Origin: an uncultured Selenomonadales bacterium
GTDB taxonomy: Bacteria; Bacillota; Negativicutes; Selenomonadales; Selenomonadaceae
Assembly: GCA_900314765.1 (NCBI GenBank)
Contig: OMWN01000077.1
Coordinates: 1-35,184 of the forward strand
Length of the DNA: 35,184 nucleotides
Direction: 5' to 3'
Below the pieces are notes generated by a model. It did not search any database. It worked only from the letters and a program-made list of their open reading frames with translations, and was not told the origin of the DNA. The translations under genes were made by a program, and so were the position numbers. How positions within the stretch are numbered: position 1 is the stretch's first letter; every line of letters starts with the position of its first letter. This document shows positions 15,483-20,877 of the stretch, piece by piece.

Positions 15483-15520
15483 AAATGCAAACTCACGTGA
15501 AAGTGAATTTGCATTTTTTA
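15483..15520. terminator. Bidirectional terminator between sprT-like and DUF721 genes
   Basis: AAATGCAAACTCAC (15483-15496) pairs with GTGAATTTGCATTT (15503-15516) with one mismatch, followed by T-runs. It overlaps the stop region of the convergent DUF721 gene. Confidence 0.88.
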
Positions 15521-16528
15521 TTGCTTATTTTCGTTTCTTTTTCTCAGTCTCTTGAGATACTCTTTTCTTTTTCTCTCGCCGTATTGCTCGCACACATTTT
15601 TTGATTTTTCTCTTTTTATCTTGTCCCAGTCCTGCCGCTGGTCGTAGCGGAACCTTCTGAGCGTCTTTTGCATGAGCTCCGCCGTGAGGTCCTCGGGATG
15701 GCATTTTGTCACGAGCATCACAAGCATCCTCGCCTCGTCTGACGTCGTGTCGCCGTACTCTATTTTCTGCGCCACGTTATGTATCATCGTCATGCGCTCG
15801 GCCATGACGAGATGCGCATCGCAGTTCAATATATTCGCTATCTCCGCAAATGTCAGCCACGGCTTTTTCCGCAAAATCTTTCTGATTTCTCGCGCCTTAT
15901 CTTCATTCTCCCTGCGCTCGCACGCATAGCAAATTCTGCGCTCCGGCGCCACGAGATGACCACATATCGGGCACGCATGGTAATGCTCATTCATGAGCTC
16001 TCTCTTTTTCGCAATGCTCTTCGACAGCGCGCTCGCCGCCGCTGCCTTCAGCGCCTCGTCCCCTATCCTCTCGCACGACGACAGTGCCTTTCTTTCTTCC
16101 TCATTATTTGGCTTCACGCGCTCCCTGAATTTCTCTTCATCCTGCGCGTCGTCATGTCTCATGCTCTTGAGGCGCACTATATTCTTATAATTTTTTTTGA
16201 AATCAAATGAAAATCGTATGGCCGTGACGACCTCGCCGGCGACATACGCATTGATTTTTTGAATCAAATCGTATTCCATGAATTTGAGCGTGTTTGACCA
16301 GACGGGCGAGTCGGAATGAAGATACAGCGTCTTGAAATCAAAACGCACGGGATAGACATTCATGGCTATATCCTTGCCGACGATTTTATCCCAAGCGTAA
16401 AAGACGCGATGCTGCTGAAATGAGCGTCGCGTCGAGGCATTGCCATTGCCAATTATCCGATACAGGATTGAATTGACATTCTCTATTTTTTTGTTGCTGT
16501 AGCTTCTGCCATTTTTTACGTTTTCCAT
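15518..16528 (-). CDS. DciA-like (DUF721) protein fused to a zinc ribbon
   Basis: A 336-residue protein. Residues 15-115 match the DUF721/DciA domain (AWDKIVGKDIAMNVYP, then HSDSPVWSNTL), the family that includes the helicase operator DciA of bacteria lacking DnaC/DnaI. The rest is not part of a typical DciA. A charged linker is followed by a four-Cys zinc ribbon (Cys186, Cys189, Cys200, Cys203 in CPICG and CYAC) and a long basic helical region ending in KRKEYLKRLRKRNENK. The start is uncertain: ATG 16528 begins one base after the recF stop, fitting coupling, but no good ribosome site is visible; ATG 16552 and 16585 overlap recF. Last gene of the dnaN-recF transcript. Confidence 0.75.
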   Translation of the reverse strand: MENVKNGRSYSNKKIENVNSILYRIIGNGNASTRRSFQQHRVFYAWDKIVGKDIAMNVYPVRFDFKTLYLHSDSPVWSNTLKFMEYDLIQKINAYVAGEVVTAIRFSFDFKKNYKNIVRLKSMRHDDAQDEEKFRERVKPNNEEERKALSSCERIGDEALKAAAASALSKSIAKKRELMNEHYHACPICGHLVAPERRICYACERRENEDKAREIRKILRKKPWLTFAEIANILNCDAHLVMAERMTMIHNVAQKIEYGDTTSDEARMLVMLVTKCHPEDLTAELMQKTLRRFRYDQRQDWDKIKREKSKNVCEQYGERKRKEYLKRLRKRNENKQ

Positions 16529-16529
16529 T

Positions 16530-17657
16530 TTAAATGATATGTCCACTCTTGACATTGTAGATTTGAAATCTGTCCTGCATGCCATTGTTTGGAAAATATG
16601 CGTCGTCCGTCGCCGTGATGAACGTCTGTATATTTTCCGCCTTCAAAAAATCGAGGAGCGATGATCTGCGGCTCTTGTCGAGCTCGCTCATCACGTCGTC
16701 GAGGAGCAGCACGGGATATTCGCCCGTCTCGTCCTTGAAAAATGAAAGCTCCGCCAGCTTCAGCGCCAATGCGCCCGTGCGCTGCTGCCCCTGCGAGCCA
16801 AACGTGCGAAGATCGACGCCCTTGACCTCGATTTTGAGATCGTCGCGATGCGGCCCGAGGCTCGTATATCCGCGCGCTATGTCGTTTTCCGTTATCTCAT
16901 TGAAAAGCGTCATATACCATTCGGCCATATCGTCGACAGAAAGTTGCTCGTCAAATTCATGTTTCTTGCCCGACATTACCTCGTACGAAATATTGAGGTC
17001 TTCCGTCTCGCCCGCAATGCTCTTCTGCAGGTCGTTCGCGATGACATTCAGCTTCGCCACGGACTTGAGCCTTTTTTTCACGACGCTGGCCGCCGCCTTC
17101 GCCAAAGGCTTGCTCCAGAGCTCAAGCATCGACCTGTCTGTTATTTCCTCATCGCGAATTTTCTTTAAGAGCGCATTCCGCTGCGTGATAATGTGCGTCA
17201 GCATCATGAGATCGCTGAAATACGCTGGGTCCGCCTGTGAAATCTCCATGTCGAGAAAGCGGCGCCTCCCTGCCGGCGCCCCCTTCACGATAAATAAATC
17301 CTCGGGCGAAAACATCACGACATTTATGGCGCCGATGAGCTCCTTCATCGCTATCGGGACGCCGTTGTATATGATTTCGCGCCTTTTGTTTGAGTGGAAC
17401 TTGAACTCGAGGGAATTGCCGACGTCCGCGCGCTCGAAATCCAGCCTCACAAGAGCCTGCTGCTCATTCCAGCGAATAAGCTCATTGTCGCTTTTCGTCC
17501 TGTGCGAGCGCCCCAGCGCCGAATAATACACAGCCTCTATGATGTTCGTCTTCCCCTGCGCGTTCGGCCCCAAGAAAAGATTAATGCCGTTAGTCGGCTC
17601 TATCTCAAGCCTCTCGTAATTTCTGAAGTTCCTGAACAATAATTTTTTTACTTTCAT
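16530..17657 (-). CDS. recF: DNA replication/repair protein RecF
   Basis: A 375-residue SMC-like ATPase that helps load RecA at gaps. N-terminal LLFRNFRNYERLEIEP leads to the Walker A loop FLGPNAQGKTNIIEA. The region SLGPHRDDL and the signature FGSQGQQRTGALALKLAEL are followed by Walker B LLLDDVMSELD. Length is normal. The gene begins 13 bases after dnaN with only a weak ribosome site and ends one base before the DUF721 ATG. Between dnaN and recF most Firmicutes carry a small S4-domain gene (yaaA/rlbA); there is no room for it here. Confidence 0.96.
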   Translation of the reverse strand: MKVKKLLFRNFRNYERLEIEPTNGINLFLGPNAQGKTNIIEAVYYSALGRSHRTKSDNELIRWNEQQALVRLDFERADVGNSLEFKFHSNKRREIIYNGVPIAMKELIGAINVVMFSPEDLFIVKGAPAGRRRFLDMEISQADPAYFSDLMMLTHIITQRNALLKKIRDEEITDRSMLELWSKPLAKAAASVVKKRLKSVAKLNVIANDLQKSIAGETEDLNISYEVMSGKKHEFDEQLSVDDMAEWYMTLFNEITENDIARGYTSLGPHRDDLKIEVKGVDLRTFGSQGQQRTGALALKLAELSFFKDETGEYPVLLLDDVMSELDKSRRSSLLDFLKAENIQTFITATDDAYFPNNGMQDRFQIYNVKSGHII

Positions 17658-17670
17658 ATATCACACTATA

Positions 17671-18804
17671 TCAGTGAAATTCACGTGTCCTGACTGGTGT
17701 CGCGATGTAAATGAAATTACCGTCGCCTTCCTCGCGTATGGCGGCAGGCTTCAGCGATTCATTGAGTGAGAGATAAAATTCTTTCGACGTCAATGTTTTC
17801 AGCACATCAATCAAATACGCCACATTAAACGATATTTCCACATCGGGACCATCAATCACAACAGGCATCGTCTCGCTCGTCTCGCCGACCTCTGGATTTG
17901 ACGATGAAAGATGAACCTCTCCCATCGAAAAATTCATGCTGATCACGTTGTAGTCAGAAGAGCGTGCGACGAAGGAGATGCGATCCACGGCCGACTTGAA
18001 TTCATCAACGGGAATCGTGACGCGCGTCGCAAATTCCTGCGGTATCGCGTAGCGATATTCTGGGAACTGGCCTTCTATGAGGCGCGATGTGATGTACGTG
18101 TCGCCAAACGAAAAGCATATTTCACTGTACGTGCGGCCAATCTCTATGTCATCGGGAATCTCGGATGTGAGGTCTCTCAAGAGCTCCTCGAGAATGCGCT
18201 TAGGTATGATGCACTGTTCTTTTTTCTCGAAATTGACGCCCTCAAGCTTGTCCTCAGCGAGCGCGAGACGATGAATGTTCGTCGCGACCATTCGAATGGT
18301 GTTTCCCTCGAGCTCGAGAAGGCATCCCATGAACACAGGGCGCGCATCGTCGGTCGAGCAGGCGTATGACGTGCGGCGAATAAGCCGTTTCAGTATGTTG
18401 TCGCGCAGCTTGAAAGAGCCCTCGCCCGTGATTTGATTGATTTTAGGGAAATCCTCCGCATTCATGACATTGAGCTGCACATGGTAGGCGTTTGACGATA
18501 TTTTCGCCAATTTACTCTCATTGCCATTCTTGGCGAAGTCCAGTTCCATGATTTCGCCCGGCAGCTTTCGTGCCGTCTCCTGAAGGAAATGGCCTTCGAT
18601 GACTATTTCTCCCGTCTCTATGACGTCTGCGGCAATTTTCGTCACGATGCCGATCTCATAGTCTGTGGCTATGATGACGAGCCCGTCTTCCTCCGCTCTC
18701 ATGTAAATGCCCGAGAGAATCGGGGTCTGCGGCTTCGTGGCCACGGCATGGCTTGCTATTTGAATCGCTTCTGAGAATTCCGATGTCTGGCATTTGAACT
18801 TCAC
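17671..18804 (-). CDS. dnaN: DNA polymerase III beta subunit (sliding clamp)
   Basis: Ring-shaped processivity clamp, 377 residues, three repeated clamp domains. I begin it at GTG 18804: the encoded start V/M-KFKCQTSEFSEAIQ aligns with the usual MKFTxxxxxLxxALQ start, and AAGGGAG lies about 9 bases upstream. Upstream in-frame ATGs at 18828 and 18972 would add residues that no clamp has and would run into the origin. Family features seen: PILSGIYMRAEEDGL, the domain-2 segment around RPVFMGCLLELEG and the C-terminal FIYIATPVRTREF. It leads the dnaN-recF-DUF721 transcript. Confidence 0.95.
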   Translation of the reverse strand: MKFKCQTSEFSEAIQIASHAVATKPQTPILSGIYMRAEEDGLVIIATDYEIGIVTKIAADVIETGEIVIEGHFLQETARKLPGEIMELDFAKNGNESKLAKISSNAYHVQLNVMNAEDFPKINQITGEGSFKLRDNILKRLIRRTSYACSTDDARPVFMGCLLELEGNTIRMVATNIHRLALAEDKLEGVNFEKKEQCIIPKRILEELLRDLTSEIPDDIEIGRTYSEICFSFGDTYITSRLIEGQFPEYRYAIPQEFATRVTIPVDEFKSAVDRISFVARSSDYNVISMNFSMGEVHLSSSNPEVGETSETMPVVIDGPDVEISFNVAYLIDVLKTLTSKEFYLSLNESLKPAAIREEGDGNFIYIATPVRTREFH

Positions 18805-18828: not shown

Positions 18829-19180
18829 TTGGTTAACTTTACGAGTAAATTTTATCTCATTTTGCACCGTCTCGCAAATATTTTTATAGCACATAATTTT
18901 GATTTTTATTGTGGGGCGCTGAGTTTTCCACAGACCTTTATTATTATTATTAAAGTAATAGAATCTAGTCATAATAGTAATAGGCGGTGTGGAAATGTGG
19001 AAAAGCGATTTCAGTCCGCGAAATCAATGCGATTCTGACGTTGATAAAGTGTTGATAACAGAGAAAAAGTTATCAACACTATTCACAAAAATATTTTTGA
19101 TGGTAAATTATCAACAGAAATCGCTGAGTATTTTACAATATATTCACGGCTTTATGCACAGAAAATTTATGAAAAAAATA
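18829..19180. other. oriC: Predicted oriC: DnaA-box cluster and unwinding region
   Basis: The dnaA-dnaN gap carries many DnaA boxes (consensus TTATCCACA). On the plus strand: TTTTCCACA 18924-18932, TTATCAACA 19070-19078 and 19108-19116, TTATGCACA 19152-19160. On the minus strand: TGTGGAAAT 18988-18996, TGTGGAAAA 18996-19004, TGTTGATAA 19050-19058. AT-rich trinucleotide runs (18938-18965) and a DnaA-trio row (18966-18983) abut the tandem boxes. I infer this is the unwinding side of a two-part origin whose other part lies upstream of dnaA. Confidence 0.85.
18966..19004. promoter_or_regulatory. Candidate basal unwinding system: DnaA-trios, GC spacer, two DnaA boxes
   Basis: Triplets TAG-TCA-TAA-TAG-TAA-TAG (18966-18983) touch the GC spacer GCGG (18984-18987), which touches the tandem boxes TGTGGAAAT (18988-18996) and TGTGGAAAA (18996-19004). 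Read 3' to 5' from the spacer the triplets are GAT, AAT, GAT, AAT, ACT, GAT, fitting the published trio consensus 3'-(G/A)A(T/A) at five of six positions. Confidence 0.75.
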
Positions 19181-20770: not shown

Positions 20771-20877
20771 TTATCCACTTTTTTATACACAAGGTGTGGA
20801 TAAAATTTTGTTCAAAACATATCTATCTAAAATTAATTCAGCAATAATAATATCAAAACGATGAAAAGTTATCAACA
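20771..20877. other. DnaA-box cluster upstream of dnaA (second part of a bipartite oriC)
   Basis: Four boxes lie between dnaA and rpmH: TTATCCACT 20771-20779, TTATACACA 20783-20791, the perfect TGTGGATAA (minus-strand box) 20795-20803, and TTATCAACA 20869-20877. The surrounding sequence is very AT-rich. The cluster probably serves both origin architecture and dnaA autoregulation. The rest of this 340-base gap holds the rpmH promoter and leader. Confidence 0.85.

Follow-up and report, generated by a model that had tools for sequence, protein, structure and literature searches.

The closest known system to the locus described here is the basal unwinding system (BUS) of Bacillus subtilis (incC), in which the DnaA boxes 6 and 7 are combined with DnaA-trios (PMC6669920, PMC8287927, PMC10721633). 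Cryo-EM of the B. subtilis complex revealed that DnaA captures two of the three bases of a trio: Arg202/Glu228 hold the first, Asn187 contacts the amino group of the second, and the third base faces away; the spacer pairs G19:C24 and G20:C23 are lost in this structure (PMC10721633). A central cytosine allowed near-native strand separation in vitro and outgrew guanine or thymine in vivo, and the possibility was raised that DnaA homologs might accept a wider range of sequences (PMC10721633). The strand opposite the trios is the site of DnaD in B. subtilis, and DnaD has been proposed to serve the second helicase (PMC10201434).

The DNA analysed by us, referred to below as the window, is a stretch of 35,184 nucleotides from a member of the Selenomonadaceae whose genome (2.33 Mb) is assembled in 103 contigs. 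Its dnaA, dnaN and recF genes and a gene for a DciA-type protein all lie on the minus strand, dnaA and dnaN are separated by a gap of 432 bp, and the GC skew turns near 18 kb of the window, as expected at an origin. Within this gap, the initial annotation had proposed tandem DnaA boxes, an abutting GC-rich spacer of four bases and a row of triplets, followed by AT-rich DNA. All of these elements are present in the sequence, and the coordinates 18966-19004 given for boxes, spacer and triplets are exact (Table 1). The upstream box TTTTCCACA deviates at one position from TTATCCACA, and the downstream box reads ATTTCCACA at 18996-18988 when the base shared with the upstream box is counted. The trios begin 4 nt from the downstream box and 12 nt from the upstream box; on the strand presumed to be bound by DnaA, the plus strand of the window, they read 3'-GAT AAT GAT AAT ACT GAT-5' from 18983 down to 18966. 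The run thus consists of four consecutive 3'-NAN-5' trios, a fifth trio centred on C, and a sixth trio. An additional, out-of-phase run of CTA TTA CTT is located at 18961-18953 inside the AT-rich stretch.

The published BUS definition asks for a DnaA box with at most two mismatches, at least three consecutive 3'-NAN-5' trios and a distance of 0-16 bp between box and trios. The box mismatches, the trio number and the box-trio distance at 18966-19004 all fall within these limits, so that the B. subtilis-like arrangement suggested initially agrees with this definition in both its elements and their spacing. Judged from its sequence, the segment can firmly be assigned to the BUS, a known kind of element. 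Its C-centred trio and an inverted second array at 18924-18952 make it a variant of the BUS and not a plain copy; the first inventory of the gap had recorded the BUS correctly and had overlooked both of these features.

Table 1. Position, strand and supporting evidence of the features at and around the dnaA-dnaN gap (window coordinates).
Feature	Position	Strand	Evidence
dnaA	19238-20734	-	Pfam Bac_DnaA, Bac_DnaA_C, DnaA_N
Upstream DnaA box TTTTCCACA	18996-19004	-	exact TTWTCCACA match; aligned in 105/110 family gaps (anchor-biased count, see text)
Downstream tandem DnaA box TTTCCACA	18988-18995	-	1 mismatch; spacing to upstream box constant across family
GC-rich spacer CCGC	18984-18987	-	family consensus GSCC, 4 nt
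Six DnaA-trios CTA TTA CTA TTA TGA CTA (dnaA to dnaN direction)	18983-18966	minus-strand reading	sequence, substitution pattern
AT-rich stretch past trio 6	18938-18965	.	AT-rich at same place in family
Inverted trios, five times TTA read on plus	18938-18952	bound strand would be -	sequence, pattern searches
Spacer GACCT of inverted array	18933-18937	+ reading	sequence
Inverted DnaA box TTTTCCACA facing the BUS	18924-18932	+	exact match
dnaN	17671-18804	-	Pfam
recF	16530-17657	-	sequence
DciA-type helicase operator gene, downstream of recF	15518-16585	-	Pfam DciA 6e-16

AT-rich gaps favour YTW triplets, and a run of T-rich triplets could consequently come to lie beside DnaA boxes by chance. When the 432-bp gap was shuffled 20,000 times with its dinucleotides preserved, tandem boxes with four trios never arose, and a single box with at least four trios arose twice (2/20,000). 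An exact box with at least four strict trios within 16 nt is found at two places in the 2.33-Mb genome, both of them in the dnaA-dnaN gap, and a reversed-pattern control recovered no box-trio array in the whole 2.33-Mb genome. These results speak against a chance run, which is refuted in the main by the conservation of phase and spacing in the family and which we consider exceedingly improbable. The family sample comprised 110 regions downstream of dnaA, aligned by register. The alignment check that the initial annotation had called for bore out its expectation: boxes, 4-nt spacer and trios stand in the frame of the window in 105 of the 110 gaps, a count biased toward the trio consensus, part of which was included in the anchor string (looser anchors were used in further comparisons, among them that of the 51 loci from other groups described below). 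Among the five remaining gaps, those of genus g7 (L154, L156) carry one extra spacer base, and three gave no comparable gap. The nearest genome in the comparison shares approximately 62% DnaA identity with the window; one further genome of the same genus is available as an assembly that lacks dnaA and dnaN. In the family alignment, trio 1 is CTA in 104/105 cases, trio 6 is CTA in 103/105, and trios 4 and 5 are variable. The trio model alone gives no explanation why trio 6 (18966-18968) is as rigid as trio 1.

The DnaA protein encoded in the window retains each of the seven side-chain residues for base capture and oligomerisation that were checked: N237, I240, I243, R252, K272, E278 and R314 correspond to Asn187, Ile190, Ile193, Arg202, Lys222, Glu228 and Arg264 of B. 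subtilis. Glu223, which makes a main-chain contact in B. subtilis, is replaced by Val273. With a high degree of confidence, we regard 18966-19004 as the origin-opening module, a BUS at which DnaA would open the duplex at the spacer/trio junction toward dnaN. Following the B. subtilis precedent for binding, oligomer growth and melting, domain IV of DnaA would bind the tandem boxes at 19004-18988, and adjacent AAA+ domains would then assemble on the plus strand of the window, starting at the spacer/trio junction, and would capture bases one and two of every trio along the way from 18983 to 18966. The duplex would open at the spacer/trio junction and opening would proceed toward dnaN, the first unpaired pairs being predicted at the trio-proximal end of the spacer. 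The six trios present here are as many as seven DnaA protomers engage in the B. subtilis structure. Melting had initially been predicted to begin near 18983; by analogy, this position is supported to within two bases by the start that the cryo-EM data imply, because the final two pairs of the spacer have already come apart in the B. subtilis complex. Melting toward dnaN, with DnaA on the plus strand of the window, would follow from the geometry of the elements.

The proposal that the triplets fit 3'-(G/A)A(T/A) holds for trios 1-4 and 6 and fails for trio 5 (TGA), which is 3'-ACT-5' on the bound strand and thus has C, not A, as its central base. Substitutions inferred by parsimony on the family protein tree differ between the three trio positions. 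The first base interchanged between C and T in 23.5 of 31 changes, so that a purine is kept on the bound strand; the middle base interchanged between T and G (as read) in 35.5 of 47 changes, so that A or C, each a base with an amino group, is kept there; the third base is looser, with mixed changes. The change between T and G is otherwise rare here, with 18/372 in the AT-rich flank and 12/213 upstream (Fisher 7e-29 and 4e-24, respectively, treating parsimony changes as independent). As a sequence pattern, the changes at the three trio positions agree with the way in which B. subtilis DnaA reads the bases in the structure, and the A/C swap thereby provides evolutionary support for the readout of the amino group. 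At 51 loci from other groups, mostly Bacillota with some other phyla, and anchored on the boxes and trio 1 only, the middle bases of trios 2-5 are T in 84%, G in 13% and A or C in 3%.

Most likely, trio 5 with its central C is a working trio, since C retains the amino group read by Asn187 (here Asn237). Furthermore, the published 3'-NAN-5' search rule is too narrow, because A and C swap at trio centres and because of the published biochemistry on C. The natural A/C pattern at trio centres is what our data add to the suggestion made previously (PMC10721633); we found no report of natural C-centred trios in a literature search, which is not proof of absence. Of the 15% of origins for which the published NAN search gave no BUS, some may be recovered with a 3'-N(A/C)N-5' rule, and several Lachnospiraceae and Actinobacteria resemble such origins missed by the NAN rule. 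The trios of Lachnospiraceae with their relatives and of Actinobacteria (L073, L091, L096, L105, L111, L076, L077, L108, L110) are often or mostly C-centred on the bound strand; they read CGG, CGA and TGA, and a NAN search would undercount them. Since DnaD reads the other strand, we considered a restriction of C-centred trios to genomes lacking DnaD, and rejected it: G264 and G285 possess both DnaD-type domains and a middle G.

The substitution pattern also bears on another reason for which the triplets might be kept, namely as a dnaN promoter or as a DnaD recognition element (DRE, TnnT) on the complementary strand. DnaD of B. subtilis occupies the strand opposite the trios, and the rigidity of trio 6, for which the trio model offers no explanation by itself, speaks for such a role. 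Yet the DnaD domain (PF07261) was not detected in the source genome or in eight chosen relatives, whereas the search recovered it in the positive controls B. subtilis and L. lactis; TnnT is broken by G at the middle positions; and the swaps fit a readout of the strand bound by DnaA. A promoter or DRE as the cause of triplet conservation is hence very improbable, and we retain the BUS as the explanation.

Downstream of the BUS, the inverted array, in which an exact box is followed after 5 nt by five TTA trios, likewise lies within the published BUS definition of a box, at least three trios and at most 16 bp. It has a single box and all of its trios are 3'-AAT-5'; the tandem boxes and 3'-GA-5' trios that are usual, and not required, are missing. 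The only two box-trio arrays of the 2.33-Mb genome face each other. When 190 dnaA-dnaN gaps were scanned, reverse-strand arrays with at least four trios were found in three genomes only, in all of which a perfect box faces a forward BUS. In the class, this face-to-face pattern occurs in 3/380 genomes, that of the window and those of two species of genus g15 (loci L167 and L176), with no control matches; an inverted box as a general feature of the family is rejected on these numbers. The lineages of the window and of g15 are separated by approximately 1.75 substitutions per site in the tree, the array ends are 13 nt apart in the window and 14 nt in g15, and the inverted box-to-trio spacer measures 5 nt and 11 nt, respectively. 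The inverted trios of g15 are mixed (TTA CTA TTA TTA CTA). At L167 and L176, long GC-rich repeats close to either end enlarge the gap and flank the BUS pair.

The inverted array could be a functional BUS. Two DnaA filaments, one per strand, would then converge, each guiding a helicase, and DnaA would open the origin from both sides with one helicase per strand and without DnaD, replacing the DnaD/DRE route of B. subtilis. This reading would add to the preferred explanation without contradicting it. The pairing and orientation of the genome's only two arrays, the perfect box facing a forward BUS wherever reverse arrays occur, the nearly equal separation of array ends in the distant g15, where the mixed trios do not form a simple repeat, and the lack of detectable DnaD in all three genomes argue for it. 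On the other hand, the array is missing from almost all of the family, relatives without it lack DnaD as well, and in the window it consists of (TTA)5, a repeat that could have arisen by slippage. All of its trios are of the weaker 3'-AAT-5' type, and an origin with 3'-AA trios throughout is defective in B. subtilis (PMC10721633); moreover, the box is single, and the box-to-trio spacer differs between the window and g15. Many relatives have boxless TAATAATAA-like runs at this place: runs of at least three repeats downstream of trio 6 occur in 48/103 gaps, against a shuffle mean of 25 and a maximum of 35; poly-A close to the ribosome site of dnaN swells this excess, part of which also shows up in the complement control. 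On balance, we consider a functional inverted BUS rather unlikely. As DnaD was not detected, the face-to-face pair could, in principle, load one helicase on each strand, and it suggests how replication might be initiated bidirectionally by simple means. How bacteria load two helicases on opposite strands is an open question (PMC10721633, PMC10201434), which could be put to a direct test at a natural origin such as this one, where a second BUS is inverted and DnaD is not detected. Convergent BUS arrays did not turn up in our literature search, which does not prove their absence.

Other features of the region deserve mention. A perfect 12-bp inverted repeat at 19048-19080, AGTGTTGATAAC...GTTATCAACACT, consists of two facing sequences resembling DnaA boxes; many relatives likewise possess an inverted repeat whose stem contains or adjoins DnaA boxes, and its distance upstream of the BUS is often some 55-60 nt (for example, GGGGAGGTTATC...GATAACCTCCCC). 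Upstream of dnaA, a cluster of DnaA boxes at 20771-20877 suggests that the origin is bipartite, like that of B. subtilis. The likely start codon of dnaN, judged from the sequence, is the GTG at 18804 (MKFKCQ...), chosen because relatives start with MKFTC and because a ribosome site, AAGGGAG at 18820-18814, lies upstream; by the same evidence, the start of the longest dnaN reading frame at 18972, inside the trios, is improbable. The DciA-family protein comprises 355 amino acids and is longer than the DciA domain alone (residues 38-125); a weak zinc-ribbon match is present at residues 204-223.

The oriC of E. coli combines DnaA boxes with an AT-rich unwinding element, as does the window, and is not located beside dnaA. 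Its BUS score is weak (PMC8287927). With the DRE (PMC10201434), which lies on the strand opposite the trios, the locus would share a bearing on the loading of a second helicase; it differs in that no DnaD domain was detected in the window genome and in that trio 5 interrupts the TnnT rhythm. Collectively, the tandem boxes, the GC-rich spacer, the six trios, the location between dnaA and dnaN and the DnaA contact residues connect the locus to the B. subtilis BUS, whereas the C-centred trio 5, the facing inverted array, the lack of detectable DnaD and the nearby DciA gene set it apart from that system.
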